Assembly (NCBI RefSeq): GCF_003627965.1
Contig: NZ_RBWE01000001.1
Location: forward strand, 1,202,934 to 1,266,933
Length of the DNA stretch: 64,000 nt
From: Desulfofundulus salinus
GTDB lineage: Bacteria > Bacillota > Desulfotomaculia > Desulfotomaculales > Desulfovirgulaceae
Direction: 5' to 3'
Positions 11,562 through 38,486 of the stretch are shown piece after piece. The notes under the pieces are model-generated. The model ran no database searches. It saw only the letters and a list, made by a program, of their open reading frames with translations, and was not told where the DNA came from. Position 1 is the stretch's first letter; the number at the start of each line of letters is the position of its first letter. The position numbers and the translations under genes were made by a program.

Positions 11562-11582
11562 AGAGCTAAAGCCGGCCTGGTC

Positions 11583-12029: not shown

Positions 12030-12155
12030 GGTGACAGAAGTCACCGGTTTAATGTTCGCTTTGACATAAAGCAGGAAAAAGCGTAGTGGCAACCATGAAG
12101 GTGCTGTTTCCCTCCAGAGGAAGGAGGCAGGCTTTCATGGTTTTCTTGTTTTTCC
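12030..12155 (+). ncRNA. E-type structured leader RNA, copy 2
   Basis: Hairpin GGTGAC/AGAA/GTCACC (12030-12045) is followed by a junction and then a long terminal hairpin with outer stem AACCATGAAG/CTTTCATGGTT (about 12091-12142) and a T-rich tail. It is the first of three RNA elements stacked in the btuF leader. Confidence 0.6.
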
Positions 12156-17506: not shown

Positions 17507-17761
17507 ATGTCGAAAAACTTCCCGGCCCGGATCATTGTAAATCCCGAGCTGGCCACCACGGGTTATGCCTTTGAAAGCAGAAGGGACATTTCCCCCTTTG
17601 TGGAGACCGTTCCCGGGCCGACCACGGAATTGTTCGGTGCCCTGGCCCGCCGGTACGGGGTCTATATTTGCCTGGGGCTACCGGAAGTGGATTTAAAATC
17701 GGGTATTTATTATAACACCGCAGTCCATTTAGAAGAGGGGAGAGAATGGGATGAAGCTTAG
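17507..17761 (+). pseudogene. Nitrilase-family (carbon-nitrogen hydrolase) remnant
   Basis: Only a middle piece remains: ARIIVNPELATTGYAFESR carries the active-site Glu region (NPEL), followed by VPGPTTELFGALARRYGVYI. The N-terminal strand and everything after about YYNTAV (Lys and Cys catalytic residues) are absent. The remnant ends inside the cobN start. Confidence 0.7.
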
Positions 17762-20700
17762 AATATTGTTTTACACGGCCATTGAGGGTGAATTGGGCAG
17801 CCTCAGTAATGCCGTCAGGAGCGTGCACAGGGAATACGGACCCCTGGTGGAAGTTCTGGCATACGCGAAGCGGGATTTAACCGGCCCGGAAAAGCAAGCA
17901 GAGTTACTGGATACGGTTCCCTGCTGCCACCTGGTGATCCTGCACCTGATGGGTGGGCCGGACTCCTTACCCTCTTTCGACCGGGTAACGGCCCTGGCCA
18001 GAGAACAGGCCATACCTCTGGCCGTTCTGCCTTCGGCGGGGGATGATACCCGGGCGCTCCTGGGCTTGAGCAACCTTTCTGAAGAAGATTACCGGCTTGT
18101 CCGGTTATATGTTTGTTACGGCGGGGAGGAGAACCTCAAAAATTTACTCATCTGGTCAATTAACCGTTATTTAAAAAAGTTTTACCCTGTACCGGAGCCC
18201 AAACCCCTCCCCTGGGAAGGGTTATACTACCCGGGGTGTCAGAGTGAGGCCCAGGCAGCGGCCCTTCTTGAAGAAAAACTAAAGGAAGGTAAACCCGTGG
18301 TGGGTATTCTTTTCTACCAGAGTTACCGGGTAACCGGCAACACCGGCTTTGTGGACGAGCTGATCAATCAAATAGAAAACCAGGGTGGTGTAGCCCTGCC
18401 GGTATTCCTGTATGCGACCAGAAACGATGAGCTGGGTAGCCGGGGGATAGCCTGGGTGGTGGAAAATTACTTTAGTCGCCAGGGCCGGCCGCTGGTGGAT
18501 GTGGTGGTAAACACTCTCATGTTTGCCCAAACCATGGCCACGCCAACCTTCAGCCGGGTTGAAGAAAAGGATCTCTACCTGCGCCTGGGCGTGCCCTTAA
18601 TCAAAGCCATCCTTTCCGTAGCGTCCCGTAGCGAATGGGAAAACAGCCAGCAGGGTCTCGGCCCGCTGGACGTTGTTATGAGCGTGGCCCTGCCGGAGTT
18701 TGACGGCGATCTGATTACTGTGCCGGTGGCTACCAGGGAGGAGATGGAAAGAGATCCCCTTACCGGGGCAGCTCCAATTAAATATGTGCCCGTTGCCGAA
18801 CGAATGCAAAAAGTGGCCTCCCTCGCCTTACGCTGGGCAAGGTTGAGGCGCAAGCCCAACCGCGAGAAAAAAGTGGCCATTATCCTGCACAATTACCCGC
18901 CCCGCAACGACCGCATCGGCAACGCCTTCGGCCTGGATACGCCGGCCAGCGTACACCGTTTGCTGGTGGCCATGCACAAGGCCGGTTATCTGGTTGAAGA
19001 TCTGCCGCCCGATGGAGCGGCTTTGATGGAAAAAGTCCTGTCCGGCTTGACCAACGAGCGGGGCTGGCTGGACCCCCGGGAACTGGAGCGCCGGGCAGCC
19101 GCCAGGGTGGAGAAAAGTACTTACAGGGAGTGGTTTTTCGCTTTCCCCGGGATCTCACAGGAGCACCTTAAACGGGACTGGGGGCCCCCTCCCGGAGAGG
19201 TTTTCTATTACGGAGATCATTTGCTGGTACCCGGGATATTTCTGGGCAACGTGTTTTTGGGCGTGCAACCGCCGCGAGGCTTTTTGGAAGACCCGTCGAA
19301 AATCTACCACAGCCCGGATCTTTCCCCGCCACATCACTACCTGGCCTATTACCGGTGGTTGCGGGATGTTTTTCAAGCAGATATTGTCTTTCATATTGGT
19401 AAGCATGGCTCACTGGAGTGGCTTCCCGGCAAGGGGGTGGGACTTTCCGCGGCCTGCTTCCCGGACCTGGCTATTAACGACCTGCCTCACGTTTACCCGT
19501 ATATTGTAAACAATCCAGGGGAAGGCACCCAGGCCAAGCGCCGTTCCCATGCCTGCATTATTGACCACCTGGTGCCGGTTATGACCAGGGCCGGGTCATA
19601 TGATGAACTGGCCGAAATTGAGGTTCTCTTGAAGGAATATAACGAAGCAAAAATGATGGACGCTTCCAGGCTGCCCTCCCTGCACAACCTGATCTGGGAA
19701 AAAGTGGCACTTACTCATCTGGATCAAGATTTAAAAATAACCCGGGAGGCAGCAGAAAAAGACTGGGAGGATTTTTTGGAGCGCCTGCATTCGTACCTGC
19801 ACGAGATAAAAGATACGTTGATCCGGGACGGCCTGCACATTTTGGGCCAGCCGCCGGCAGGCGAAGCCCTGGTGGAAATGCTCCTGGCCCTAACCCGCCT
19901 GCCCAACGGTCCGGTCCCTTCCTTGCGGGAGCAGGTAGCCGGTATAAAAGGGTTCAGCTATGAAGCACTCCTGTCAAATCCCGGCTATTTCGATCCAGAT
20001 CGGGGACGTACATATGGAGAAATGCTGGATGAAATTGATAACCTGGCCCGCCGGTTGCTGGAAGCCTTCGTAAATGGCGGTTATACGGTAAATGAAGCGC
20101 CCTTTATAGTGCAAAAGCTCCTGGGAAAACAAAATGAGGAGATTTGCCGGGTGCTTGAATACGCAGTCAATACGCTGGTGCCGGCTCTGGCCGCAACAAA
20201 GCAGGAACTGGACAACTGCCTCAACGCTTTAGCTGGGGGTTTTGTGCCCCCTGGACCTTCGGGAGCTCCTACCCGTGGCATGGCTGACATTCTCCCTACC
20301 GGGCGCAATTTTTACTCCGTCGATCCCCAGGCTGTTCCCAGCCGTGCGGCCTGGCAGGTGGGCTGCTCCCTGGCTGATGCCCTGCTGGAACGGTACAGGC
20401 AAGAGAAGGGAACCTATCCCAGGAGTGTTGGCATTGTGGTATGGGCTACCAGCAACATGCGTACGGGCGGTGATGATATAGCCCAGGCGTTGTACTTAAT
20501 GGGAGTCCGGCCGGTATGGGATGAAAAAAGCGGGAGAATTAAGGGACTGGCTGTAATCCCACTTGAGGAGCTGGGACGGCCCCGGATAGACGTGACCATA
20601 AGGGCCAGCGGGATGTTCCGCGATGCCTTTTTAAATGTCATCCACTTGATTGACCAGGCAGTGGAAATGGTGGCCAATCTGGACGAGCCGGAAGATTTGA

Positions 20701-21509
20701 ATTTTGTAGCTGCCCACGTGCGTCAGGAGGTGGCAGAAAAAGTAGCTCAGGGGATAAATCCGGAACAGGCCCGGGAAGAAGCCCTGTGGCGTATTTTCAG
20801 CGATCCCCCGGGGTGTTACGGGGCGGGAGTGAGCAACCTCATAACCGCCAGGAACTGGCGGGACGAGAAAGACCTGGGGGAAGTCTACGTCACCTGGGGT
20901 GGTTATGCTTACAGCCGGCGCTCTTTTGGTAAAGATGCCCGGCCTGCTTTCCGGCAGCGCCTGGCCCTGGTGGAAGCTACCGTGAAAAATGAGGATACCC
21001 GCGAGATCGATATGTACGACAGCGATGACTTTTACTCCTACCACGGCGGGATGGTGGCGGCGGTAAAGGCAATAAAGGGGGAGCCGCCCATGTCTTTCAG
21101 CGGCGACAGTTCGGATCCGGCAAGGGTGCGGGTGCGTACTCTCGACGAGGAAACAAAGCATATTTTCCGCGCTCGTGTACTTAATCCCAGGTGGATTGAG
21201 AGTATGAAGCGCCATGGTTATAAAGGGGCGGGAGATCTCTCTCACCTGGTGGAGGTGGCTTTCGGCTGGGACGCCACCGCCGGGGTGCTGGAGGACTGGC
21301 TTTACGAGGCTCTGGCACATAAGTATGCCCTGGATCCATCCATGCAGGATTGGTTTAAAGAAGTCAATCCCTGGGCTTTGCAGAACATTGTCGAACACTT
21401 GCTGGAAGCCATTGAAAGGGGAATGTGGCAGGCAGCACCGGAAATGAACGAGGCATTAAGAGAACTTTACCTGGAAATAGAAGGGGAACTGGAGGCCCGG
21501 ACGGAATAG
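17751..21509 (+). CDS. cobN: CobN/BchH-family chelatase large subunit, paralog 1
   Basis: The 1252-residue length is usual for the family. Recognisable blocks include FHIGKHGSLEWLPGKGVGLS (about 545-565), the PHVYPYIVNNPGEG block, KRRSHACIIDHLVP, and the C-terminal conserved DYFGD-like and RHGYKGA sequences (SMKRHGYKGAGDLSHLV). CobN and ChlH/BchH hold a tetrapyrrole while an AAA+ motor (CobST or ChlID) drives metal insertion. No such motor gene is in this window. The gene lies in the cobalamin-riboswitch operon behind btuFCD-cbiZ, so a role in corrinoid handling during salvage is inferred. Radical SAM follows after 34 bases. Confidence 0.88.
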   Translation: MKLRILFYTAIEGELGSLSNAVRSVHREYGPLVEVLAYAKRDLTGPEKQAELLDTVPCCHLVILHLMGGPDSLPSFDRVTALAREQAIPLAVLPSAGDDTRALLGLSNLSEEDYRLVRLYVCYGGEENLKNLLIWSINRYLKKFYPVPEPKPLPWEGLYYPGCQSEAQAAALLEEKLKEGKPVVGILFYQSYRVTGNTGFVDELINQIENQGGVALPVFLYATRNDELGSRGIAWVVENYFSRQGRPLVDVVVNTLMFAQTMATPTFSRVEEKDLYLRLGVPLIKAILSVASRSEWENSQQGLGPLDVVMSVALPEFDGDLITVPVATREEMERDPLTGAAPIKYVPVAERMQKVASLALRWARLRRKPNREKKVAIILHNYPPRNDRIGNAFGLDTPASVHRLLVAMHKAGYLVEDLPPDGAALMEKVLSGLTNERGWLDPRELERRAAARVEKSTYREWFFAFPGISQEHLKRDWGPPPGEVFYYGDHLLVPGIFLGNVFLGVQPPRGFLEDPSKIYHSPDLSPPHHYLAYYRWLRDVFQADIVFHIGKHGSLEWLPGKGVGLSAACFPDLAINDLPHVYPYIVNNPGEGTQAKRRSHACIIDHLVPVMTRAGSYDELAEIEVLLKEYNEAKMMDASRLPSLHNLIWEKVALTHLDQDLKITREAAEKDWEDFLERLHSYLHEIKDTLIRDGLHILGQPPAGEALVEMLLALTRLPNGPVPSLREQVAGIKGFSYEALLSNPGYFDPDRGRTYGEMLDEIDNLARRLLEAFVNGGYTVNEAPFIVQKLLGKQNEEICRVLEYAVNTLVPALAATKQELDNCLNALAGGFVPPGPSGAPTRGMADILPTGRNFYSVDPQAVPSRAAWQVGCSLADALLERYRQEKGTYPRSVGIVVWATSNMRTGGDDIAQALYLMGVRPVWDEKSGRIKGLAVIPLEELGRPRIDVTIRASGMFRDAFLNVIHLIDQAVEMVANLDEPEDLNFVAAHVRQEVAEKVAQGINPEQAREEALWRIFSDPPGCYGAGVSNLITARNWRDEKDLGEVYVTWGGYAYSRRSFGKDARPAFRQRLALVEATVKNEDTREIDMYDSDDFYSYHGGMVAAVKAIKGEPPMSFSGDSSDPARVRVRTLDEETKHIFRARVLNPRWIESMKRHGYKGAGDLSHLVEVAFGWDATAGVLEDWLYEALAHKYALDPSMQDWFKEVNPWALQNIVEHLLEAIERGMWQAAPEMNEALRELYLEIEGELEARTE

Positions 21510-22760: not shown

Positions 22761-22898
22761 GATGACCGAAGTCGTCGGGTTTTTAAGAAAGGCAATCTAA
22801 CAAAGGCTATCTAACCAGTTAAAAACTCGAACGGTAAAAGCCACGAAGGCAATGTCTTCCTCATCGAAAGGGGGCTGCTTTTTCGTGGCTTTTAATTT
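22761..22898 (+). ncRNA. E-type structured leader RNA, copy 3
   Basis: Hairpin GATGAC/CGAA/GTCGTC (22761-22776), a junction with GGCAATCTAAC/GGCTATCTAACC repeats, then a terminal hairpin with outer stem AAAGCCACGAA/TTCGTGGCTTT (about 22837-22892) and a T-rich tail. It lies 20 bases before the nickel/peptide-type permease gene. Confidence 0.65.
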
Positions 22899-22915
22899 TC
22901 AGGAGCGTGCATTAA

Positions 22916-23854
22916 ATGAGCCAGTACCTGATAAAGCGTTTTTTCTACCTCATCCCTGTAATGCTGGGGGTATCCATCATTACCTTTGCGTTAATCAACC
23001 TGGCCCCCGGCGATCCTGCTGAACTAATCCTGCGGGCCGGCGGGGTGGAGCCTACCAGAGAAGCCGTAGAGGCCTTGCGGGAAGAGCTGGGCCTGAACGA
23101 CCCGGTATACATTCAGTACGGCCGGTGGCTGTGGAATGCCGCGCACCTGGATCTGGGCAAATCGTTTCGCACCGGGCGTCCCGTGGCGGAAGAAATTCTC
23201 TCCCGCTTTCCGGCCACCCTGGAGCTTGCTTTCGCGGCCATGGCCTTCATGATATGTCTTGCCCTGCCGGCGGGGATCCTCTCTGCCCTTTACCGGCACG
23301 CCTTCCTTGACCACTTAAGCCGCCTCGGGGCTCTTCTGGGTGCTTCGCTTCCCGGTTTCTGGCTGGGGTTAATGCTCATCTACCTTTTTGCCGTGAAGCT
23401 GGGTGTTTTGCCGGTAATGGGCCGGGGCGGGCCAGAGCATCTGGTGTTGCCGGCGGCAACCTTAGGATTTGGCCTGGCTGCCGTCTACGCCCGGATTTTG
23501 CGGGCCAGCATGCTGGACGTGCTGGGGCAGGACTACATCAGGGTGGCCCGGGCCAAGGGGTTGAAGGAAAAGTGGGTGATTGGGCGCCACGCCCTGAAGA
23601 ACGCCCTTTTGCCCGCGGTGACGTTGCTGGGCATGAGCTTCGGGCACCTTTTGGGGGGAGCGGTAATTGTGGAAACCATCTTTGCCTGGCCGGGCGTGGG
23701 GAAGTTTGCCGTGGATTCCATCTTCAACCGGGACTACCCGGTGATCCAGGGGTACGCCCTTTTCATGGCCGTGGTGTTTGTCCTGGTGAACCTCCTGGTG
23801 GACATATCCTATGTTTTTCTCGACCCGCGCATCCGCCTGGAAAGGGGGAAATAG
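22916..23854 (+). CDS. Nickel/peptide-type ABC permease (NikB/DppB-like)
   Basis: The 312-residue membrane protein has the DppB/NikB family hallmarks: MSQYLIKRFFYLIPVML first helix, NLAPGDPAELI, and the EAA coupling loop RVARAKGLKEKWVIGRHALKN's region near residue 205. About six membrane helices are predicted by eye. It starts the permease/ATPase operon that runs to 26782, directly behind E-type leader 3. The substrate could be nickel or cobalt, free or chelated, or a peptide. The CobN and corrinoid neighbours favour a metal or metal chelate. Confidence 0.88.
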   Translation: MSQYLIKRFFYLIPVMLGVSIITFALINLAPGDPAELILRAGGVEPTREAVEALREELGLNDPVYIQYGRWLWNAAHLDLGKSFRTGRPVAEEILSRFPATLELAFAAMAFMICLALPAGILSALYRHAFLDHLSRLGALLGASLPGFWLGLMLIYLFAVKLGVLPVMGRGGPEHLVLPAATLGFGLAAVYARILRASMLDVLGQDYIRVARAKGLKEKWVIGRHALKNALLPAVTLLGMSFGHLLGGAVIVETIFAWPGVGKFAVDSIFNRDYPVIQGYALFMAVVFVLVNLLVDISYVFLDPRIRLERGK

Positions 23855-23857
23855 CCG

Positions 23858-24787
23858 GTGAGTATCTCGAAAAATTCCGGTGTGGGGGTTGCCGGTTATC
23901 CTGCTACTGTGGAGTCAGCGGGCCAGGCGGGAACGGTCTCGCGCGGGCTGCTGGCCGCCGCGCTGGAAAGGCTCTGGCAGGATAAACTGGCTCTTTTGGG
24001 GCTGGTGATCATCCTGGCCGTGGTGGCCGTGGCGGTTTTTGCGCCCTATATTGCGCCCAACGACCCCGTAAAGGTGGATCTGGCGCAGCGTCTTGCACCG
24101 CCCGGCGCGCAGTACCCCCTGGGCACCGACCACCTGGGGCGTTGCCTCTTGTCGCGGTTGATCTATGGCACGAGGGTTTCCCTGGCCACGGCGGCTTTAG
24201 CTCTGTCTGCCATCATGCTCATCAGCATTCCCCTGGGCACCCTGGCGGGCTACTGCGGGGGGCGGGTGGACAACGCCATCATGCGGGTAGTTGACGTGCT
24301 GCTGGCCTTTCCGGGCCTGATCCTGGCGCTGGTCATCGCCGGGACGCTGGGGCCGGGGCTTTTAAACGTGATGCTGGCGTTATCTTTAGTCTGGTGGGTG
24401 GGGTACGCCCGGGTCATCCGGGGGATGGTCCTTTCAGTGAAAGAGAAAGAATTCGTCCTGGCGGCCCGGGCCTGCGGCACGTGTGAGATGGGCATCATCA
24501 CGCGGCACATCCTGCCCAACGTGCTCTCCCCGGTGATCGTCCTGGCCACGCTGGACATGGGCAAGCTGATCCTGGCCATCTCCGGGCTTTCCTTCCTGGG
24601 CCTCGGCGCCCAGCCGCCAACGCCGGAATGGGGGGCCATGCTGAACGACGGCCGGCCTTACATGCAGGTGGCGCCGCAACTCATGGTCTACCCGGGTCTT
24701 TGCATCATGACGGTGGTGCTGGCCTTCAACCTGCTGGGCGACGGCTTAAGGGACGCCCTGGACCCGCGGGGGATTACCAGGCTTTAA
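23858..24787 (+). CDS. Nickel/peptide-type ABC permease (NikC/DppC-like)
   Basis: The 309-residue protein has an N-terminal cytoplasmic leader, then the DppC/NikC pattern APYIAPNDPVKVDLAQRL, YPLGTDHLGRCLLSRLIYG and the EAA loop VLAARACGTCEMGIITRHI. It starts 3 bases after the previous stop, so translation is coupled. It pairs with the DppB-like subunit. Confidence 0.88.
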   Translation: MSISKNSGVGVAGYPATVESAGQAGTVSRGLLAAALERLWQDKLALLGLVIILAVVAVAVFAPYIAPNDPVKVDLAQRLAPPGAQYPLGTDHLGRCLLSRLIYGTRVSLATAALALSAIMLISIPLGTLAGYCGGRVDNAIMRVVDVLLAFPGLILALVIAGTLGPGLLNVMLALSLVWWVGYARVIRGMVLSVKEKEFVLAARACGTCEMGIITRHILPNVLSPVIVLATLDMGKLILAISGLSFLGLGAQPPTPEWGAMLNDGRPYMQVAPQLMVYPGLCIMTVVLAFNLLGDGLRDALDPRGITRL

Positions 24788-24831
24788 GCGCTCAAAGACG
24801 CATTTTTAAGGAAGACAAAGGGGGCTGGCCG

Positions 24832-25806
24832 ATGTCTTCTGCTCCTGTTCTAAGGGTGAAAAATCTTTCCACCCATTTTTACACCAGGCACAGCGTCATC
24901 AAGGCCGTAGACGGGGTGAGTTTTGTGGTGGCGGCCGGGAAAACCCTGGGGTTGGTGGGGGAAAGCGGTTGCGGCAAGAGTGTTACAGCCCTGTCCATCC
25001 TGCGCCTGATTGAGCCGCCAGGAAGAATTCTTTCCGGGGAAGTCTGGTTAAACGGTTACGACCTGCTCAGGCTTCCCCTACGGCAGTTGCGGCGGGTGCG
25101 GGGCAGGGAAATAGCGCTTGTTTTCCAGGACCCGCTGACCTCCCTGAACCCGGTTTTAACTATCGGTACGCAGCTTGCGGAAACCATTGTCTCTCATGAA
25201 GAGGTATCCCGGGTTGAAGCGCGGCGACGGGCGGTAGACCTTCTTTCCCGCGTGGGCCTGCCCGACCCGGAAAGGCTGTTGCGCCTGTACCCTTTTCAGC
25301 TTTCCGGAGGCATGCGCCAGCGGGTGATGATGGCCATGGCGCTCTCGATGCGCCCGAAGGTGTTAATTGCCGATGAGCCCACCACCGCCCTGGACGTTAC
25401 CGTCCAGGCCCAGATCCTGGCGGAGCTAAAGCGGCTGCAGGAGGAGCTGGGTATGGCCGTCATCCTCATCACCCACGACCTGGGGGTGATCGCGGCCATG
25501 GCCGATGAAGTGGCGGTGATGTACGCCGGATCGATTGTGGAGTGTGGCCCGGTGGCAGAAGTCTTTGACCGTCCCGCCCACCCCTACACCCGGGCTTTGC
25601 TCCGTTCCATGCCGCGCCTGGGCAGGGAAGAACTGGTGCCCGTTGAGGGGCAGCCGCCGTCGCTTCTAAATCTCCCGGCCCATTGCCCCTTCCTCCCCCG
25701 CTGCCCGCAGGCGGGCGCGGCGTGCTGGGGGGAGAAGCCGGAATTGCGGGAGATCGGGCCGGGCCACGCGGCAGCCTGCCACCGTTTATTTCCCTGGGCC
25801 GGCTAG
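24832..25806 (+). CDS. Nickel/peptide-type ABC ATPase (NikD/DppD-like)
   Basis: The start is ATG 24832; the longer open frame upstream only overlaps the permease gene. The ATPase has Walker [11 protein letters not shown], signature [12 protein letters not shown], Walker [15 protein letters not shown] and the oligopeptide-family C-terminal zone with cysteines ([16 protein letters not shown]), which in some members binds an Fe-S cluster. About 45 bases separate it from the permease. Confidence 0.88.
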
Positions 25807-25822
25807 GGGAGGAGGGATGCGG

Positions 25823-26782
25823 GTGAGCCTCCTGGAGGTAAGGGATCTGGTTAAGCACTACCCGGGGAAAGGAGGGATTCTGGCCGGCTGCCGGGAAAAG
25901 GTGCGGGCTGTTGATGGGGTTTCTCTCTCCATAGCCCGGGGAGAGACCCTGGGCCTGGTGGGGGAGAGCGGCTGCGGCAAGAGCACCCTGGGGCGGCTGG
26001 TGGTGCGGCTGGAAGAACCTACGGCTGGAAAGATTTTTTTCGCCGGCGAGGAGATCACCGTCTGGACGGGGAGAAAGCTGCGGGAGCTGCGCCGCCGCTT
26101 CCAGATCATCTTTCAGGACTCTTCTTCCTCTCTCAACCCGCGCCGGACGGTGGAGGCAATCATTGAAGAACCCCTGGCCAATTTCGGCGTGGCGAAAGAG
26201 GAGCGCCGGGAGCGGGTGCGTGACCTTTTAACGCTTGTCGGTCTGGAACCGGAGCACGCCTCGCATTACCCCCACGAGTTCAGCGGGGGCCAGCGCCAGC
26301 GCATCAACATTGCCCGGGCCCTGGCCCTGCAGCCGGAGATGGTGGTCTGCGACGAGCCCGTTTCCAGCCTGGACGTATCCATCCGGGCGCAGATCTTGAA
26401 TCTGTTGCGGGAGCTGAAAAGACGGCTCAATCTTTCGTACCTCTTCATCTCCCATGACCTGGCGGCGGTGAATTATCTTGCCGACCGGGTGGCGGTGATG
26501 TACCTGGGCAAAATCGTGGAGTTGCTGCCGGCAGAAGGCCTCGTATTACAGGCCCGCCACCCCTACACCCGGGCGCTTTTGAGCGCGGTGCCAGAACCCA
26601 ACCCGCGGCAAAGGACCAGCCTAAAGCCGGTGGTACGGGGTGAGCCGCCTGACCCGGCAAATCCTCCACCGGGCTGCCGCTTTCACCCCCGGTGCCCCGA
26701 AGCCCGCGACGTTTGTCGGCAAGAGGAGCCCGTTTTGAAGGAGGTGGGAGAGGGGCATTTGGTGAGTTGTCACCTGGTATAA
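25823..26782 (+). CDS. Nickel/peptide-type ABC ATPase (NikE/DppF-like)
   Basis: Walker [11 protein letters not shown], signature FSGGQRQRINIA, Walker B MVVCDEPVSSLDVS and a Cys-containing oligopeptide-family C-terminus (FHPRCPEARDVC). The ATG at 25817 is only a few bases from GGGGAGGAGG; GTG 25823 has the normal spacing and is preferred. It completes a BCDE transporter; the binding protein for the set is probably the lipoprotein at 31694 or the parent of the chimera at 26939. Confidence 0.88.
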   Translation: MSLLEVRDLVKHYPGKGGILAGCREKVRAVDGVSLSIARGETLGLVGESGCGKSTLGRLVVRLEEPTAGKIFFAGEEITVWTGRKLRELRRRFQIIFQDSSSSLNPRRTVEAIIEEPLANFGVAKEERRERVRDLLTLVGLEPEHASHYPHEFSGGQRQRINIARALALQPEMVVCDEPVSSLDVSIRAQILNLLRELKRRLNLSYLFISHDLAAVNYLADRVAVMYLGKIVELLPAEGLVLQARHPYTRALLSAVPEPNPRQRTSLKPVVRGEPPDPANPPPGCRFHPRCPEARDVCRQEEPVLKEVGEGHLVSCHLV

Positions 26783-26808: not shown

Positions 26809-26917
26809 AAAGCGGGAAACTGGCTTTCGCCATTATTACTTACCGCCAATTCACGCGGGCCACGAAGGTCCTTTTTGCCCTGCCGAAACAGAGGTGGACT
26901 TTCGTGGCCTTTTTGCG
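26809..26917 (+). ncRNA. E-type structured leader RNA, copy 4
   Basis: The terminal hairpin matches the family closely: outer stem GGCCACGAAGGTCC/GGACTTTCGTGGCC (about 26858-26909), inner loop CCGAAA, then TTTTT. The proximal hairpin diverges (GGCGA/TCGCC and CCAG/CTGG pairings around 26791-26830) and is less certain. The element ends 22 bases before the chimeric gene. Confidence 0.6.
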
Positions 26918-26938
26918 CTCATAAGGAGGGCTTTTAAA

Positions 26939-27790
26939 ATGGACATTGCTGGTTTAACTGATTTTAAACCACCCGTCTCAGGAGAAGCACTGGCAGAGAT
27001 GGCCAGATGCTACCAGAAATCTCTGCTCCTGGAACAGACGTTTAAGTTAGGGATTTTTGAAAACCTTGCGGCCGGTCGAAGTGTTACGCAATTGGCCGAG
27101 CAAACGGGGGCCCGTCCAGAGCGGTTAGCTCTCGTACTGGATGCGTTAGTGTCTGTTGGGCTTTTGGAGAAAAACGGCGACACTTACACTAACACCGTTA
27201 TGACCAATACCTTTTTGTGTTTACACAGCAAGTTTTACCAGGGCGATCTCCTTAGACTGCAGCTTGCGCCGGAGCGGCGCCGGCAATGGGAACGAATTGG
27301 GGATAAATTCCAGGTGACGCTTATTGCTTCCACCCTTTACGAAGAAGGCAGGGCAATTGCCGAGGCCGTGCAGGCGGACTTGAAGAAAGTCGGTATTGCC
27401 GTTGAGGTACGGGTGCTGGAGTCTGCCGCCAGATTCGAGGCTTTAAAGCAGCGCAATTACGACCTCGTTGAATTGGGCGGCATCTGTGCCACCAACGACC
27501 CGACACCTTGGTTCAGCTATTATTTCGGCACCCAGCATCCGGAGTACTGCGTGCTAAAAGACCAAACCTTACAGGAACTGGTGGGCGGGCTCTATGCCGC
27601 AGTTACGGCTGAGGCGCGCCGGGAAATCTTCTTTAAGCTCCAGGAGTTGCTAAAAGAGCGGGCACCGGGCATTTTCCTTTACAGTCAGGATGCCATTACG
27701 GTGACCAGGGAAGCAGTTAAAGATTTTACCATGGAGGGCGGCATGCCTGGAAGCTATTCCTACCTGCGGGTTATTTCGTTAAGCAACTGA
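26939..27790 (+). CDS. Chimeric protein: methyltransferase N-domain fused to the C-half of a NikA/DppA-type binding protein
   Basis: ATG 26939 follows AAGGAGGG. Residues 1 to about 118 look like the helical dimerisation/winged-helix domain of O-methyltransferase-type enzymes (LLLEQTFKLGIFENLAAG, then RLALVLDALVSVGLLEK). From about residue 125 the sequence matches the last third of family-5 solute-binding proteins, such as the neighbour at 31694 (AEAVQADLKKVGIAVEVRV, RNYDLVELGG, LQELLKERAPGIFLY). The SAM-binding fold, the lipoprotein signal and the first binding lobe are all missing. It is best read as an in-frame deletion product between two genes. Function is doubtful although the frame is clean. 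Confidence 0.75.
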   Translation: MDIAGLTDFKPPVSGEALAEMARCYQKSLLLEQTFKLGIFENLAAGRSVTQLAEQTGARPERLALVLDALVSVGLLEKNGDTYTNTVMTNTFLCLHSKFYQGDLLRLQLAPERRRQWERIGDKFQVTLIASTLYEEGRAIAEAVQADLKKVGIAVEVRVLESAARFEALKQRNYDLVELGGICATNDPTPWFSYYFGTQHPEYCVLKDQTLQELVGGLYAAVTAEARREIFFKLQELLKERAPGIFLYSQDAITVTREAVKDFTMEGGMPGSYSYLRVISLSN

Positions 27791-27803: not shown

Positions 27804-30800
27804 ATGATCAAAATTGCCGGTTTCCGGGTAATTTACGGGCCCAGCACGGTGGGGCGGGTTTATGAGGAGGCGGTGGCGGAGCTGGCAGCTGCCGGGTGGC
27901 CTGTTGACCTACGCTACAGCCAGCCGCCACCGGCGGGAATGCTCCTTCCTTCCCCGGAGTGGCTCCGCTTTGCTAAAGAGGAGGCAGACGCGGTCTTTTT
28001 CAGCTTCCCGCCGGAGTTTAAGGCGCTGGGAGAGCTTTTCGGCCGGCTGAAGGAAGAGCTTTCTAAACCGGTTGTACCGGTGACCGTTGAGGTGGCGGGA
28101 ATAAGCAGTATCGCGCCGGAAGTGGTCCAGCGCGCCATCCAGTACCACCTTTTCGGCGGCAAAGAGAACCTGAAAGCCTTCCTCCTGTGGCTGGGCGAGC
28201 TGGCCGGGAAGTTGCCGGCCGGGACGGCGCCCGCACCGCAGGAACTTCCCTGGGCGGGGATTTACCACCCGCGGGCTAAGGGATGCTTTACGCATCTTGC
28301 TGATTACCTGGCCTGGTACGGGGAGCGGCGGCCGCTTGTGGGCCTGCTTTTCCCCCGCGTTTTCTGGGTGGAGGAAAACCTGGCGGGGTATGATGCTATT
28401 ATCGAAGAAATTGAGCAGCGCGGCGCCGGGGTAATCCCCGTCTTTAGCGACGGCTGGTTTGGCCAGGTAAAGAACGACGATGTCATCCGGCTGTTTTTCT
28501 TCCGGGATGGAAAGCCGGTCATTGAAGCCCTGGTGGCCTACAGCGCCTTTTTCTTAAAGACGCGCCGGGAGGTAGTCGCCTTAAACCGGGAGCCGGCTGA
28601 TGATGTGCTCTTAGAACTCAACGTGCCCATTTTAAAGATGATCTACGCTGCGCGGCAAACGGAAGCCCAGTGGCGGGAAGACCCGCAGGGCTTGAATTTA
28701 CCGCAGGTGATCATCAGCATCACCTTGCCGGAGTTCGACGGGCTCATCGAACCCCTTCTGGTTAGCGCGGCGGAGGACGAGGGGGACTTTGCTCTCGGTC
28801 GGCCCCTCCTTTCGGAAGTGCGATACTTGGGTGACCGGCTCTTCCGTTGGATAGAGCTCCGGCATAAGCCCAATGCCGCAAAGAAAGTGGCCTTTGTCCT
28901 TTTAAATTCTCCCTGCAAGAGCGCGGAGGCTACGGTGGGGACGGCTTTCGGGCTTGACTCCCTGGAGAGCGTGGCCCGTATTTTAAGGCGGATGAGGGAG
29001 AAAGGTTATCGCCTTGAGTGGGTGCCCCAAGACGGTCGCGAACTGGCGGAAGCAATTTTGGGGCGCAAAGCGCTTCCCGACTTCCGCTGGACCACGCTAG
29101 AGGAGATAGTGACAAAGGGCGGGGCGGCGGCCATGGTGCCCCTGGAGAAGTACCTCCGGTGGTTTGAGGAACTCCCGCCTCAGGCCAGGGAAAAGATGGC
29201 GGTGGCCTGGGGGGACCCGAAGGAAGCCAGGGAACTTTCCGGCGTGCAAAAGCTCTCCCTTGGGCTTTACAACGGTCACGTGATTATCCCCGGAATCGTT
29301 ACCGGCAATGTGTTTATTGGCGTACAGCCCAAGCGGGGCTGCGCTGGTTCCCGCTGTGATGGGGAGGTCTGCAAGATCCTCCACGACCCGGACGTACCGC
29401 CGCCGCACCAGTGGATAGCCTGGCACAGGTGGCTCGAGGAGGAGTTTGGTGCCGACGTGGTGGTGCACGTGGGCACCCACGGGGTGCTGGAGCTTCTGCC
29501 CGGCAAGACTACAGCTCTATCTGAATCCTGTTTCCCCCGCATTTCTCTAGGTAAGGTACCGCACCTTTACATTTACAACCTGGTCAATCCCATGGAGGCG
29601 GTAGTGGCCAAGCGGCGCTCGGCAGCGGTCATTGTGGATCATCTGCCGCCGGTTCTGGCCAGCATGCGTCTTTCCGGCGATCTCGCCGACCTGGAGGAGT
29701 TGCTGGAGGACTACCAGAAGGCGGTAAGCCTCAATGAAAAAGGACGTGCCGGGGTAATCCGGGGACAGATTGCCGAAAAAGCGCGCTCAACCGGCCTTTG
29801 GGGCGAGGGCCAGGAGCCCGACCCGGCGGTTTTGCACGAGAAACTCACCGTCCTGCGGGAGAGTCAGTTCCGCGACGGCCTGCATATATTTGGCGAGGCG
29901 CCGGCGGGTGAGGCGCTGGCCGAGCTTTTAAACACTGTCCTGCGGCTGGATCAGCCCGACTGTCCCTCTTTGCGGCGTGCTCTGGCAGAGTGCTTAAAGC
30001 TTGATTACGATGTCCTGTTTAAGGAACCGCAAGCATTTCACCCTGCGGCCGGGGTGAGCAAAGGCAAGCTTCTTGAGGAGCTGGATGTGCTGGGGAAGGA
30101 GATCCTGGCTGACCTCCTGGACTTGCCGGTGGATGCGGTGGGCGAGCCTCTGGCCAGGGCGCAGGAGCACATTTCCCGCTTTGCCCGGCGCCGGGGTCTT
30201 ACACCTGACGGCGGTAAAAACTCGCTGGCCAAAGTGCTGGCCAAAGCCCTGCGAATCATACCCCTGGTGAGGCGCACGACTGATGAAATGGAAAACCTGC
30301 TGCGGGGTTTTGCTGGCGAGTTCATTCCTCCCGGCGCCTCCGGGGCACTGGCCCGGGGCAAGGTGGAGGTTCTGCCCACCGGACGCAACATGTACTCCAT
30401 CGACCCCTGGCGTATCCCCACCGCTGCTGCCTGGGAGGTGGGGATGCGGCTGGCAGAGGAACTCATTGCCCGCTCGAAAAACGAGGACGGTTCTTACCCG
30501 GAAGCCATCGGCTTCACCTTGCGGGCGATGGATCCCTTCCGGGCCGATGGCGAGCTCATTGCCCAGATCCTCTATACCCTCGGTGTGGAGCCGGTCTGGG
30601 TGGCCGGGCGGGTGGTAAACCTCAGGCCCATACCTTTAAATAAACTGGGGCGTCCCCGCATTGACTGTCTGGTAAACCTCTCCTCCATCCTGCGGGATGG
30701 GATGTCGCGTGCCTTCGAGCTCATTGACCAGGCGGTGAAGATGGTGGCGGAGCTGGAGGAGCCGCCGGAACAGAATTTTGTGCGCAAGCACATGCTGGAA

Positions 30801-31697
30801 AGGGAGGCCGAGCTCCTGGCAGAGCACGGGAAGGAAGGAGCTCGAAGGCTGGCCACCTTACGCGTGTTTTCTTCCGCTCCGGGCACCTACGGCACGGGCG
30901 TGGAGCTGGCGGTGGCGTCGTCTGCCTGGAAAGAAGAGCAGGACCTGGCGGAGGTTTACTTCCACTGGACTGGCTACGCCTACGGCGAGGGGGTTTACGC
31001 GCGAAAAGCGCCGGCTGAGCTAGTGGACAGGTGCCGCCGGGTAACCGTGACCTTTGAAAAGTTCGATTCGGACGAAATCGACCTTTTGGACTGCTGCCAC
31101 ATATACGGGGTACACGGCGGCTTTACCGTGGCGGCCAAAGTCGCCTCCGGCAAAGAGCCTCGAACCTATTTCGGCGACACGCACGACCCCGAACGCCCGG
31201 TGATCCGCACCCTGCGCGAGGAGCTTTCCCGCATTGCCCACACCCGGCTTTTAAACCCGGCCTGGATCGAGGGCAAGAAGCGTCACGGTTACAAGGGGGC
31301 CGGGGACATCTCCAGCCGGGTCAACCACATGTACGGCTGGCAGGCCACCACCCGCCAGGTGGAAAACTGGGTCTTCGACGGCATTGCCGAAAAGTTCGTC
31401 CTGGATGAGGAGAACCGGAAGTTCTTCCAGGAGGACAATCCCTGGGCATTGGAAGAGATCGTGCGGCGGCTTCTGGAGGCGGAGAGTCGGGGACTCTGGC
31501 AGGCCGATCCCGAACTCCTGGCCCGGGTTAGGGAAGCTTATCTGGAGATCGAAGGCTGGCTTGAGGAGCAGATGGGGGAGGTGAAGGGCGAATTCCAGGG
31601 CGGGGCGGTGGATGTTCGCGCACTTGGGGAGATGGAGGGATGGCAGGAGAAGTTAGCCGTTGTGCGAAAGGAATTGGAAAGGAGGAAAGCGCAGTGA
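27804..31697 (+). CDS. CobN/BchH-family chelatase large subunit, paralog 2
   Basis: The 1297-residue protein is homologous to the CobN at 17751 along its length (VHVGTHGVLELLPGKTTALS about 560, PHLYIYNLVNP, KRRSAAVIVDHLPP, KKRHGYKGAGDISSRV). It differs by a Cys-rich insertion, RGCAGSRCDGEVC (about 515), just before the metal/porphyrin site region. It starts at ATG 27804 after GAGGAGG. It is followed with a 4-base overlap by a family-5 binding lipoprotein, and the NikBCDE-like genes lie upstream. This pairing of a CobN-like protein with a nickel-type importer suggests handling of metal or metallated tetrapyrrole at uptake. Metal specificity is unknown, and no AAA+ partner is in the window. Confidence 0.85.
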   Translation: MIKIAGFRVIYGPSTVGRVYEEAVAELAAAGWPVDLRYSQPPPAGMLLPSPEWLRFAKEEADAVFFSFPPEFKALGELFGRLKEELSKPVVPVTVEVAGISSIAPEVVQRAIQYHLFGGKENLKAFLLWLGELAGKLPAGTAPAPQELPWAGIYHPRAKGCFTHLADYLAWYGERRPLVGLLFPRVFWVEENLAGYDAIIEEIEQRGAGVIPVFSDGWFGQVKNDDVIRLFFFRDGKPVIEALVAYSAFFLKTRREVVALNREPADDVLLELNVPILKMIYAARQTEAQWREDPQGLNLPQVIISITLPEFDGLIEPLLVSAAEDEGDFALGRPLLSEVRYLGDRLFRWIELRHKPNAAKKVAFVLLNSPCKSAEATVGTAFGLDSLESVARILRRMREKGYRLEWVPQDGRELAEAILGRKALPDFRWTTLEEIVTKGGAAAMVPLEKYLRWFEELPPQAREKMAVAWGDPKEARELSGVQKLSLGLYNGHVIIPGIVTGNVFIGVQPKRGCAGSRCDGEVCKILHDPDVPPPHQWIAWHRWLEEEFGADVVVHVGTHGVLELLPGKTTALSESCFPRISLGKVPHLYIYNLVNPMEAVVAKRRSAAVIVDHLPPVLASMRLSGDLADLEELLEDYQKAVSLNEKGRAGVIRGQIAEKARSTGLWGEGQEPDPAVLHEKLTVLRESQFRDGLHIFGEAPAGEALAELLNTVLRLDQPDCPSLRRALAECLKLDYDVLFKEPQAFHPAAGVSKGKLLEELDVLGKEILADLLDLPVDAVGEPLARAQEHISRFARRRGLTPDGGKNSLAKVLAKALRIIPLVRRTTDEMENLLRGFAGEFIPPGASGALARGKVEVLPTGRNMYSIDPWRIPTAAAWEVGMRLAEELIARSKNEDGSYPEAIGFTLRAMDPFRADGELIAQILYTLGVEPVWVAGRVVNLRPIPLNKLGRPRIDCLVNLSSILRDGMSRAFELIDQAVKMVAELEEPPEQNFVRKHMLEREAELLAEHGKEGARRLATLRVFSSAPGTYGTGVELAVASSAWKEEQDLAEVYFHWTGYAYGEGVYARKAPAELVDRCRRVTVTFEKFDSDEIDLLDCCHIYGVHGGFTVAAKVASGKEPRTYFGDTHDPERPVIRTLREELSRIAHTRLLNPAWIEGKKRHGYKGAGDISSRVNHMYGWQATTRQVENWVFDGIAEKFVLDEENRKFFQEDNPWALEEIVRRLLEAESRGLWQADPELLARVREAYLEIEGWLEEQMGEVKGEFQGGAVDVRALGEMEGWQEKLAVVRKELERRKAQ

Positions 31698-33256
31698 GGA
31701 AAAAACGCATGTTGAGCAAAGGGTTTTCTTATGTGCTCTTGGTACTCTTCCTGCTTGGAGCGATAATGTCGGCTGGTTGCACCCAAAAGAATGTGCCGGC
31801 ACGGGAACAGGCGCAGGAGCTTGCCATAGCGCTGGGCGAAAAAGAAGTGACCTCCCTTGACCCTTTCGACCCGCATGGTTCCTCCTCTTCCTGGTACATT
31901 CAGCCGATGCTCTTTGAAACCCTGGTGTTCGACACGTTGAAGGGCACGGAACCAATGTTGGCGGAAAGGTGGGAAATGTCACCGGACGGGAAAAAATGGA
32001 CGTTTTACTTGCGGCAGGGGATCAAGTTTCATGACGGCAGTTTTCTTACGGCAGAGGCAGTAAAATTCAGCATCGAAAAGTCTCTGGCCAATAAAGTTTC
32101 CGGCTTGGGAGCCAGAAAACCTCCGGTGCCCGTGATCAGAGTGGAAGCAGCGGATGAAAGGACGGTGGTCGTTCATCTCGATAAGCCATACGGGCCTTTC
32201 CTTTCCGAAATCGGCAGCGTGAGGATTGTCAGTCCTGCCTCCTACCAAGGAGATAAGTTTGTAGGACCCGTGGGGACCGGTCCCTGGGTGGTTGCTTCCT
32301 TTACACCTCAGGAAATGGCCTTTACGCCCTTTAACGACTACTGGCAGGGGAAACCCAAGCTCAACAAGGTTACGATAAAGTGCATTCCCGATCCGCAGGC
32401 GCGGGTAATGGCTCTAGAGTCCGGCGAAGTGGATGTGATTGGGGTGGACATGCAGGGAGTGGAGCCGGCGGCAGCCAAGAGCCTTACGGCGTCCGGGAAG
32501 TACCAGGTGATATCTCTCCACCAGGCTTATTTAGTAGCGCTGTACTTCAACCCGCGCGCCGAACTGTTAAAAGACATCCGGGTGAGGCAGGCCATAAACT
32601 ATGCGTTGAACCGGGAGGAAATGGTGGCCAAACTGTTGGAGGGCTACGGCGTTCCCGCCAAAGGGCCCGTGGGATTTGACACCTCCATCCCCTGGACCAA
32701 CCCGCATATAGAAGGATATCCTTACGACCCGGAAAAGGCCAAAGCACTTCTTAAAGATGCCGGGTTTAAAGGGGGTGCTCCACTCAAGCTTGCCTACGAA
32801 GGTTACCGTGCCTACCACAAGGCTCTGGCCGAACTGATTCAGGCCCAGCTTGGCGCCGTGGGGATTAAGGTCGAGCTGAATTCCTGCGAGTCAGGGGCCT
32901 TCACTCAAATCCTCCAGGCCGGCCAGTACGATCTAGCGCTCATTCCGCCTTACGGCAAGCGGGAAGAGGATTCTTACCCCTATCTCGGGATGTTCTTCTT
33001 CTCCCGGGGACGATACAAAGTGATGGAAGACCCTCAATTTGACAGGCTTTTTATGGCCCAGCTCTTCACTGCCGACCCCAAAGAACGCGAAAAGCTGTAC
33101 TGGGCGCTTCAGGAGGAAATCATGAAAAACTGCCCGGCAGCCTTTTTGTTCCACCCCGACCGGATAACGGTGCTGAAGAAGGACATCCAGGGTTGGGAGT
33201 CGGATTACGGTTTTAACAGCCTGACCACGCTGTGGAAGGTGAGCCGGGGAGAGTAA
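31694..33256 (+). CDS. Family-5 solute-binding lipoprotein (NikA/DppA type)
   Basis: GTG 31694 overlaps the cobN-2 stop and follows GGAAAGGAGG. The lipoprotein signal ends with lipobox MSAGC. The mature part has the family pattern SLDPFDPHGSSSSW, LAERWEMSPDGKKWTFYLR, FHDGSFLTAEAVKFSIE and VRQAINYALNREEMV. About 520 residues is the usual length. It should deliver its ligand to the NikBCDE-like complex encoded at 22916-26782. Coupling to cobN-2 suggests a nickel/cobalt or metal-chelate ligand, but this is inferred. Confidence 0.88.
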   Translation: MRKKRMLSKGFSYVLLVLFLLGAIMSAGCTQKNVPAREQAQELAIALGEKEVTSLDPFDPHGSSSSWYIQPMLFETLVFDTLKGTEPMLAERWEMSPDGKKWTFYLRQGIKFHDGSFLTAEAVKFSIEKSLANKVSGLGARKPPVPVIRVEAADERTVVVHLDKPYGPFLSEIGSVRIVSPASYQGDKFVGPVGTGPWVVASFTPQEMAFTPFNDYWQGKPKLNKVTIKCIPDPQARVMALESGEVDVIGVDMQGVEPAAAKSLTASGKYQVISLHQAYLVALYFNPRAELLKDIRVRQAINYALNREEMVAKLLEGYGVPAKGPVGFDTSIPWTNPHIEGYPYDPEKAKALLKDAGFKGGAPLKLAYEGYRAYHKALAELIQAQLGAVGIKVELNSCESGAFTQILQAGQYDLALIPPYGKREEDSYPYLGMFFFSRGRYKVMEDPQFDRLFMAQLFTADPKEREKLYWALQEEIMKNCPAAFLFHPDRITVLKKDIQGWESDYGFNSLTTLWKVSRGE

Positions 33257-33407: not shown

Positions 33408-33563
33408 AGTGGCCGGAGCCGCTGGTTATTATGTTATAGCTTACCGGCGCCGTGAAGGCGTATAGCTGTTGCTAACGAGCTGTACGGAAATTTTGATCCA
33501 TTTTAAGGCCATGAAGGCCCTGAGTGCCTCGTCGAAGCGAGGTGTGGGTTTTCATGGCTTTTT
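33408..33563 (+). ncRNA. E-type structured leader RNA, copy 5
   Basis: Hairpin AGTGGC/CGGA/GCCGCT (33408-33423), a longer junction with extra hairpins, then a terminal hairpin with outer stem GCCATGAAGGCCC/GGGTTTTCATGGC and inner CCTCG/TCGAAG/CGAGG (about 33508-33558), ending in TTTTT. It precedes the fmdE remnant and the DUF4198 gene. Confidence 0.65.
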
Positions 33564-33719
33564 GAGTTTCATTGCTTTAGGGTTGAACACCCTTGCGTTC
33601 GGTCCTTCCGGTTTATGGTACTGCCATGTAACTTGCGAACGTTACTTTCATATGTGTTGACTAGTCGATGGATTGCGCGGACTTGTTGATCCGGGTTTTA
33701 AAGATAAGGAGAGGCTGCC

Positions 33720-33853: not shown

Positions 33854-34600
33854 ATGTTGAAGGTAGTGCAGGGTCACGAGATTTGGGTTCTGCCCGAGGG
33901 AAGTCATGGTCACGAAGGACATGAAACCCGGTGCCGGATTTTTTACGGGCACGCCATGCGTCCCGATGGCTTGGCGGACCCGGCACGGCTGGCGGCCTGG
34001 GTGCTGCTCCCCGGCGGAGCAAAGCTTTCCTTAAAGGTAGAAGCGGGAGATGACAGGTTTCACCTGGTGGCGTTTACGCCCGACCGGGATGGATTCTGGC
34101 CCGTGACGGTGGAAAACGACGTCGGGCCGGTGGCGGTTACCGCGGACGGTTTTTACCGCCGGGGGACGCGTAAAGACTACCCCGGTGCCCGGGAAGTGGG
34201 CTACTACTATCAGTACGCCAAGACATACGTGCAGGTGGGGCATTTCTGTGCCGCCTGCGGCCCGGTGGTGCAGCCACCGGAAATCACCAGCCTGGCCCAC
34301 GACCTCGAACTGATTCTTACCCCCGGTGCTTACCGGGTGGGGGACGAAGTAATTCTGGAAGTTCTTTACCGCGGCCGGCCTTTACCGGGGACAGAAGTGA
34401 AGGCGACCTGGAGCCTGCGGGAAGAAGATGACTGGGGGCTAAGCGCAAAAACTGATGATGCAGGACGGGTGAAGTTTATCTTGAGCAATCCCGGGCACTG
34501 GCTTTTTTACACCCGGGTTGCCGACGAAACCCTGGGCCGGGAAGGCGAGTACGACAAAAAGGTGTACAGCGCTACGCTAAGCCTTTTTGGTGTACGATAA
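33854..34600 (+). CDS. DUF4198-like protein without a signal peptide
   Basis: ATG 33854 follows GGGAGGAG. The 248-residue product begins MLKVVQGHEIWVLPEGSHGH, which is where the mature part of exported DUF4198 proteins normally begins; no signal peptide or membrane helix is seen, so it appears cytosolic. Two beta-rich halves follow, with several His in the first 20 residues (HEIW, HGHEGHETR), an AHD motif (about 148) and a CAAC motif (about 135). DUF4198 domains are known near nickel and cobalt transport genes, which fits this island. The biochemical role is unknown. Confidence 0.75.
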   Translation: MLKVVQGHEIWVLPEGSHGHEGHETRCRIFYGHAMRPDGLADPARLAAWVLLPGGAKLSLKVEAGDDRFHLVAFTPDRDGFWPVTVENDVGPVAVTADGFYRRGTRKDYPGAREVGYYYQYAKTYVQVGHFCAACGPVVQPPEITSLAHDLELILTPGAYRVGDEVILEVLYRGRPLPGTEVKATWSLREEDDWGLSAKTDDAGRVKFILSNPGHWLFYTRVADETLGREGEYDKKVYSATLSLFGVR

Positions 34601-36780: not shown

Positions 36781-36907
36781 CCCGTAACGAAGACGGGATC
36801 AGAGCGGACAAGCTGACCTGGACCGGACAGGTAAAGAAAGGCCACGGAGGCCCCCAGTTTCCTTCCCTGAAAGTTTAAGGAGGGTGCCCGTGGCTTTTGT
36901 TTTTTGG
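36781..36907 (+). ncRNA. E-type structured leader RNA, copy 6
   Basis: Proximal hairpin CCCGT/AACGAAG/ACGGG (36781-36797), then a terminal hairpin with outer stem GCCACGGAGG/GCCCGTGGC-type pairing (about 36841-36894), inner CCTTCC...GGAGGG, and a T-rich tail (CTTTTGTTTTTT). It lies 90 bases before the methyltransferase/Znu-type importer operon. Confidence 0.6.
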
Positions 36908-36997
36908 GGCTGGTACCCGGGATAAAAAGTGGATCCCCTTCATCCGCAGGTTATTAAAGCCAATTATCGTGGCCGTTAATATGGGAGGTAGATGTTG

Positions 36998-37606
36998 ATG
37001 GGTAGTGCACACCGGGATTATTTTAACCAAAAGGCGCCCATTTGGGACAATTTATTGACTGGTGAGACATTGGAGCGGTTGAAAAAAATCATAGATGAGC
37101 TTGCCATCAGAACCGGGAGCTTTATTCTGGACGTAGGTACCGGTACGGGGGTTCTTTTACCTTTTCTTGTTGAAGCGGCCGGTCCAGAAGGTAAAGTGGT
37201 GGCGCTGGACATTGCTGAAGAGATGCTGGCCAGAGCCAGGGCGAAAAATCCGGGGAATGTGGAATTTGTACTGGCGGACATAAGCTGTACGCCATTTCAG
37301 GAAGATACTTTCGATGAGATCATCTGCAACTCCTGTTTTCCTCATTTTACCGATAAACCCCGTGCGCTGGCCGAAATGGCCCGCATTTTAAAGCCTGGCG
37401 GGAGGCTGGTCATCTGCCATTCCATGAGCAGGGAGGCAGTAAACGATTTACACCGGTCGTTAGGGGGGGTGGTCGCCAACGATCTGATTCCCGACGATGA
37501 TAAAATGCAGGAATTGTGCAGGCACTGTGGACTAGTGGAGATTGAAATTATCAATACAAGGGAGAAATATGTTTTGAAAGCACGTAAACCCATATTGACA
37601 AGTTGA
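36998..37606 (+). CDS. Class I SAM-dependent methyltransferase
   Basis: ATG 36998 has the best spacing to GGGAGG; the ATG six bases earlier is too close. The 202-residue protein has SAM motif I ILDVGTGTGVLLPFL (about 44-58), an acidic residue after VVALDIAEEML, and the motif LKPGGRLVICHS (about 128-140). It is the first gene of an operon with a Znu-type importer, behind an E-type leader. A small-molecule substrate such as a metallophore or tetrapyrrole is possible; the substrate is unknown. Confidence 0.85.
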   Translation: MGSAHRDYFNQKAPIWDNLLTGETLERLKKIIDELAIRTGSFILDVGTGTGVLLPFLVEAAGPEGKVVALDIAEEMLARARAKNPGNVEFVLADISCTPFQEDTFDEIICNSCFPHFTDKPRALAEMARILKPGGRLVICHSMSREAVNDLHRSLGGVVANDLIPDDDKMQELCRHCGLVEIEIINTREKYVLKARKPILTS

Positions 37607-37637
37607 GCCGGGATGAAAATGGAGGAGGGTAATCTCA

Positions 37638-38486
37638 TTGAGAAGGGTTTATTCATTATCTATCACGGTAATTATTCTGGTAATTCTTTTACTTGTTATC
37701 TCTGGATGTGCGGCGAAAGATAGTCCGAAGCTAGAAGTTGCTACGGGTACGTCATTGATTGCTGATATTGTCAAAAATGTCGGCGGTGATAAAGTAGAGA
37801 CCGTGAATATTGTCCCCCCTGCTGCCTGCCCGGGGCATTTTGACCTGAAGCCAGGCGATGTGCAAAAGCTGGCCGAGGCCAGGCTATTTTTGCGCCACGA
37901 CTGGCAGGGGAAAATGTTTACCAAAGAACTGATAGAATCGGTGCATAATAAGGACCTGCAGGTGGTTGAAGTTGCCGTGGCCGGTAACTGGATGGCACCC
38001 CCGGTGCAAAAGGAGGCGGTTACAAAAATTGCCGGAATATTGATGGAAAAAGATCCATCTAACAGGGCTTATTATGAGCAAAATGCCGACCGCCTGGTTT
38101 CGCAGATTGAGTCAAAGGGCAAAGAAACCCTGTCCAGGCTTCAGGCTGCCGGCGCAGGTGGCGTGAAGGTACTCTGTTCCGATATGCAGCAGGGGTTTTT
38201 AAAATGGGCCGGTTTTGACGTGGTGGCTACTTATGGCCGGCCGGAGGAGCTTAACCCGCAAAAAATGCAGGAGCTTATTAACAAAGGGAAACAGGCTGGT
38301 GTAAAGCTGGTGGTGGATAACCTGCAGAGCGGCCCGGACGCAGGTAAAGGTATAGCGAAAGAATTGGGGGCGGCACAGGTGACCATCTCCAATTTCCCGG
38401 GAGGGTTACCGCAAACGGATACCTGGAGCGCCGCTCTGGACAAAAATGTGGAGTTGCTTTTGGATGCTCTTAAGGAGGTAAAATAA
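37638..38486 (+). CDS. Metal-binding lipoprotein of the ZnuA/TroA cluster
   Basis: The start is TTG 37638 after ATGGAGGAGG. The lipoprotein signal ends LLVISGC. The mature protein follows cluster A-I metal-binding proteins (LEVATGTSLIADIVKNVGGD, then AACPGHFDLKPGDVQKLAEA where the family usually has an HxYEP metal His). Only one His of the usual set (GHFD) is evident there, and a Cys lies next to it, so the ligand may not be zinc or manganese. It serves with the ATPase and permease that follow. Confidence 0.85.
   Translation: MRRVYSLSITVIILVILLLVISGCAAKDSPKLEVATGTSLIADIVKNVGGDKVETVNIVPPAACPGHFDLKPGDVQKLAEARLFLRHDWQGKMFTKELIESVHNKDLQVVEVAVAGNWMAPPVQKEAVTKIAGILMEKDPSNRAYYEQNADRLVSQIESKGKETLSRLQAAGAGGVKVLCSDMQQGFLKWAGFDVVATYGRPEELNPQKMQELINKGKQAGVKLVVDNLQSGPDAGKGIAKELGAAQVTISNFPGGLPQTDTWSAALDKNVELLLDALKEVK

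Follow-up and report, generated by a model that had tools for sequence, protein, structure and literature searches.

O-methyltransferases of the Methyltransf_2/Dimerisation type (nearest NCBIfam model TIGR02716, BchU) are represented in structural databases by DsyB (7wdq), RedM (8tji) and BchU (1x19), and family-5 substrate-binding proteins (SBP_bac_5) by NikA (1zlq, 4oer) and CntA (5yhe). That deletions can join neighbouring bacterial genes into working products is illustrated by the ppe38-71 locus of M. tuberculosis, where one chimera is functional and the protein product of a second fusion was detected (PMC7671302). The window analysed here, a stretch of 64,000 nucleotides from Desulfofundulus salinus, contains an open reading frame (26939-27790, + strand, 283 amino acids) in which parts of these two families meet. 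Residues 1-122 correspond to the N-terminal dimerisation domain of the O-methyltransferases, with the entire SAM-binding catalytic domain deleted, and residues 123-283 are the final 161 residues of a NikA-like protein, without the signal peptide, lipobox and N-terminal lobe and with part of the C-terminal lobe only. As in ppe38-71, a deletion appears to have put parts of two adjacent genes into a single reading frame, but here the chimera is known from its sequence alone and its parent genes are unrelated in fold. The frame is very probably a private in-frame deletion scar that joins a methyltransferase gene to a binding-protein gene, and in essence it is ordinary gene erosion, not a new protein family. 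The features of the locus are as follows.

22916-26782, + strand: NikBCDE-type ABC transporter genes, directly upstream of the chimera (open reading frames; NCBIfam nickel permease Opp2B/NikB)
26855-26921, + strand: leader hairpin and T-run before the chimera (the window has six copies)
26923-26930, + strand: ribosome-binding site AAGGAGGG, ahead of the ATG
26939-27304, + strand: N-terminal O-methyltransferase part (dimerisation/winged-helix domain), residues 1-122 (PF08100; identity to intact methyltransferases)
27302-27307, + strand: fusion junction GAT/AAA (D122/K123), from alignment to L043 and L044
27305-27790, + strand: C-terminal NikA-like family-5 binding-protein part with its own native stop (identity to relatives; partial PF00496)
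27804-31697, + strand: CobN-like class I chelatase, directly downstream (PF02514; identity to G024 and G065)
31700-33256, + strand: intact family-5 binding protein, with a 48% identical relative next to CobN in G061

The earlier note had described the frame as a methyltransferase N-domain joined at about residue 118 to the last third of a family-5 binding protein, and both Pfam and the separate genes of relatives bear out this composition. Dimerisation (PF08100) covers residues 17-93 (E 8.8e-10) and SBP_bac_5 (PF00496) residues 124-199, at profile positions 288-364 of 368 (E 5.7e-10), with a further HTH_20 match that is weak and below the cut-off (E 0.17). The join is in frame, as that note had it, although alignment to relatives places the exact site slightly later, at 27304/27305 or residue 122/123, where the methyltransferase sequence ...ERIGD runs into the binding-protein sequence KFQVTLIAS. 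The binding-protein part equals residues 360-520 of a 520-residue parent (161 residues, the last 31%). Homology reaches a single sharp breakpoint from both sides, and the two segments abut with 0 extra bases and, in the comparison with relatives, with at most one base of visible microhomology. Relative to these relatives the window lacks 1,734 bp (G024) or 1,741 bp (G065), DNA that had encoded the SAM-binding domain, the lipoprotein signal and binding-protein residues 1-359. The absences noted earlier are confirmed: Pfam finds no SAM-binding (Rossmann) domain in the chimera, a domain that is present in the parent methyltransferases, and sequence comparison finds no export signal or lipobox, the N-terminus being that of the methyltransferase; the parent binding proteins begin as lipoproteins do, with a hydrophobic leader and SGC. 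The clean frame reported before and a good ribosome-binding site are likewise there, and a stretch homologous to the ribosome-binding region lies upstream of the intact G065 methyltransferase, the similarity starting at window position 26925. Third-position GC content (0.59, against 0.73-0.81 in the NikBCDE and CobN neighbours) was considered as a sign of decay and set aside as uninformative, the intact G065 parents being likewise low (0.57-0.66).

The deletion that the earlier note proposed, from a methyltransferase gene into a NikA-type one, implies an undeleted pair, and a search of the genomes of the window's order found it in two, where both halves are separate, full-length and adjacent genes (G024:C29 and G065:C118), in the same order and on the same strand, with the same CobN gene next. 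The methyltransferases are 341 (G024) and 343 (G065) residues long and the binding proteins 518 and 520. The methyltransferase part of the chimera is 73.8% identical to residues 1-123 of the G065 protein and 62.5% to residues 1-121 of the G024 protein, and the binding-protein part is 77.0% and 75.2% identical, respectively; that two halves should match neighbouring full-length genes in two genomes (61-77% identity) is far beyond chance. The downstream CobN of the window is 86% (85.5%) identical to that of G024 and 80% (79.6%) to that of G065. In G024 the genes run NikBCDE, binding protein 1, methyltransferase, binding protein 2, CobN, FmdE-like, DUF4198; in G065 binding protein 1, DUF4198, methyltransferase, binding protein 2, CobN; and in the window NikBCDE, chimera, CobN, another binding protein. 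In more distant genomes (G281, G296, G083) the methyltransferase is a gene of its own, flanked by NikDE and a binding protein, and G329 has one downstream of DUF4198, with a binding protein next in one of its two copies. A contig labelled Armatimonadetes HOT.MB2.58 (JAIMBK010000081.1) is identical to the contig of G065, a member of the window's own order (L043/L045), and its public name looks wrong.

The ancestral order would thus have been NikBCDE, O-methyltransferase, NikA-like binding protein, CobN, from which about 1.7 kb would have been lost, from methyltransferase codon 122 to binding-protein codon 360. The partial frames would have met in frame by chance, a one-in-three event. The hybrid would be tolerated, since the intact binding protein at 31700-33256 could serve the transporter, and would be expected to disappear in time. 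The deletion itself is confirmed by the intact pair and the same CobN in G024 and G065, and further supported by the junction, by the lack of close intact parents among the matches in this genome and by the absence of the fusion elsewhere. As for the lost operon that the earlier note imagined, an E-type leader followed by methyltransferase and NikA, its methyltransferase-NikA pair is real, but the leader does not stand directly before the methyltransferase in the relatives. The parallel it drew with 36781-38486 fails, that region holding a 204-residue UbiE-type methyltransferase and a ZnuA protein (family 9), not a dimerising O-methyltransferase and NikA.

How the join arose is most directly contested by the idea that two related operons recombined, the methyltransferase coming from one and the binding protein with CobN from another. 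The nearest relative does vary along the operon, from G065 for the methyltransferase part to G024 for CobN, with the binding-protein part about equally near both, so that a recombination may have preceded or accompanied the deletion, and the upstream leader is missing before the intact methyltransferase genes. Recombination in place of a deletion is nevertheless unlikely, because one deletion suffices when the parents are already adjacent and ordered in G024 and G065, and the differing histories may predate it. Less probable still is an artefact in which both genes are real and the assembler dropped 1.7 kb between them. Family-5 binding-protein genes are repetitive in kind and the join rests on the assembly, but the contig is 2.86 Mb long in a genome of 10 contigs that is 99.98% complete, and the junction is one exact point without a repeat or microhomology to mislead an assembler. 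A conserved two-domain family, which the earlier note had named as the finding that would speak for a genuine family, has next to no probability left. No match spanning both halves occurs in any other genome of the genus (6), the order (113) or the phylum (398; overlapping sets), nor in a GTDB contig scan, which yielded one locus with the C-terminal half; every match outside the genome itself covers one half only and lies in a separate gene, which refutes such a family within the sampled genomes. In its own genome the next best matches to the chimera are 28% and 30% identical, from a search with the chimera as query, which would miss the deleted middle part if a copy of it lay elsewhere. Within the genomes sampled, the fusion is private to this one.

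Whether the hybrid does anything is a separate matter. With start, ribosome-binding site and stop intact, it is probably still translated. It would not be a methyltransferase, because the SAM domain is gone, nor an importer protein, because the signal peptide is absent and no lobe is complete, and it is most likely non-functional. An AlphaFold model from a 15-sequence alignment gave the methyltransferase core (residues 31-100) a pLDDT of 86-91 and most of the binding-protein part 28-56, with 62-72 over residues 211-240. In contrast, an intact binding protein modelled as a control from a shallower alignment of seven sequences reached a mean of 82.7, with the same segment mostly at about 80-96, and matched NikA-type structures in a fold search. 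The fold search of the chimera returned the methyltransferase N-domain and weak binding-protein matches (E about 1e-3). Together with the partial PF00496 match, the low pLDDT of the segment indicates that the chimera lacks a complete two-lobed fold with a ligand cleft. The cytosolic ligand-sensing regulator suggested earlier finds no support here, given that the remnant amounts to roughly one third of the fold and is modelled with low confidence.

It could instead be held that the fusion is newly born and functional, the dimerisation domain yielding a cytosolic dimer that carries a piece of a metal-binding protein and acts as sensor or decoy. On its side stand the intact frame, start, ribosome-binding site and stop, the precedent that bacterial deletion fusions can work (PMC7671302), and the retention of all 13 columns of the segment that are invariant among seven family-5 proteins. 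In a three-taxon codon model, moreover, the branch as a whole is not neutral: full neutrality can be rejected for the binding-protein part (lnL difference 10) but only marginally for the methyltransferase part (1.9). Omega on the chimera branch does not differ significantly from the other branches in either part, at 0.15 against 0.13 for the methyltransferase part and 0.124 against a background of 0.056 for the binding-protein part, where it lies above the background. Against a function, the remnant lacks two thirds of its fold and has low predicted confidence, unlike the intact protein, and 26 residues are altered in the chimera alone where both relatives agree, compared with 7 and 10 private to the relatives. 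In a mixture model for the binding-protein part, between 0 and about 15% of the branch can be a neutral final phase, and for the best-fitting phase the probability of meeting no stop codon is about 0.13. The selection data fit a recent scar and are also compatible with weak constraint. The 283-codon open frame and the non-neutral branch do count against a scar, though both are expected if the scar is young, and we regard a functional sensor or decoy as distinctly improbable. An expressed fusion under purifying selection, dimeric, cytosolic and in a new role such as modulating the adjoining CobN-like chelatase, is a shade less probable again; if true, it would be a young gene born by deletion inside a metal/tetrapyrrole operon.

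The deletion that very probably made the chimera is accompanied by others in the same gene island. In the sister species G005, the syntenic site after CobN1 and a radical SAM gene retains only the leader together with pieces of NikB (83 bp) and NikD (450 bp), all at 93-99% DNA identity.

L103:6282-7070 (G005:C21): NikBCDE operon remnant, NikB and NikD pieces

The NikD remnant reads in one frame into a binding-protein C-terminus (L103:6702-7070), and the intact form of that binding protein stands after NikBCDE in G002. This fusion belongs to the same operon type as the chimera and likewise has a family-5 C-terminus left by deletion, but it has a frame break in its upstream part and involves a different binding protein. 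In the window itself, a DUF4198 C-terminal remnant (11562-11861) lies directly after an FmdE-like gene and is 84.5% identical in DNA to the intact gene at 33854-34600, with a corresponding remnant in G001 and G002; G002 also has a CobN fragment. With many deletions in the island, one that falls in frame is expected by chance in one case of three. The sister species G001 carries broken, partial duplicates of CobN1 and the radical SAM gene (L106, G001:C20:1-16000).

The E-type leader that the earlier note placed before the chimera is a hairpin at 26855-26921, and its copies in the window are as follows.

1228-1287: leader hairpin
12088-12154: leader hairpin
22836-22902: leader hairpin
26855-26921: leader hairpin, before the chimera
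33504-33571: leader hairpin
36837-36907: leader hairpin

Its consensus is CCAYGAAGG ... TTTCRTGG plus a T-run, and it precedes CobN genes and genes for metal/cobalamin transport. Genomes of the genus have 4-15 matches each at E ≤ 0.01, some of them on both strands of one site, and weaker matches occur in 57 of the 113 genomes of the order. The stem shows covariation, with 24 doubly changed cells where shuffles gave 7.2. Rfam gave no match at the gathering threshold, and sub-threshold matches to CopA and microRNA families were dismissed as generic hairpins. In G065 the methyltransferase gene follows DUF4198 within about 15 bp, with no such leader directly before it, and in G024 the leader model finds nothing. 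Another short hairpin, GGYGRC-[CA]GRA-GYCRCC, precedes the leader in most copies (for example L068, L071, L076, L080 and L087) and is absent at the copy before the chimera. The leader is possibly an undescribed regulatory RNA.

In G024 the NikBCDE-type genes precede the methyltransferase in the same order, in G281, G296 and G083 they precede methyltransferase and binding protein, and the binding protein at 31700-33256 may serve NikBCDE in the window in place of the lost one. To judge by the NikBCDE, NikA-like, BchU-like and CobN-like genes, the operon probably served to take up and handle a metal or a metallated tetrapyrrole; the BchU-like match of the methyltransferase (TIGR02716) is weak and below the model cut-off. 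CobN relatives can insert metal with the help of ATPase partners or, like HmuS, remove it (PMC12583661). The island holds three CobN-like chelatases (17751-21509, 27804-31697 and G000:C1:1195258-1198977), and matches to the Mg-chelatase ATPase family (frames of 361 and 699 residues, 1,190,107-1,192,359) lie about 3 kb before the third, so that insertion partners may exist. A literature search for CobN-like genes together with nickel transporters and methyltransferases found nothing.

For annotation the locus is a warning, as the frame would receive the names of a methyltransferase and of a nickel-binding protein, though it is probably neither one. As an example of deletion-driven gene erosion in a free-living bacterium it is clean and well resolved, with both intact parents, the junction and parallel scars in sister species all on hand. 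More interesting than the chimera is the recurrent leader hairpin, which could matter more widely.
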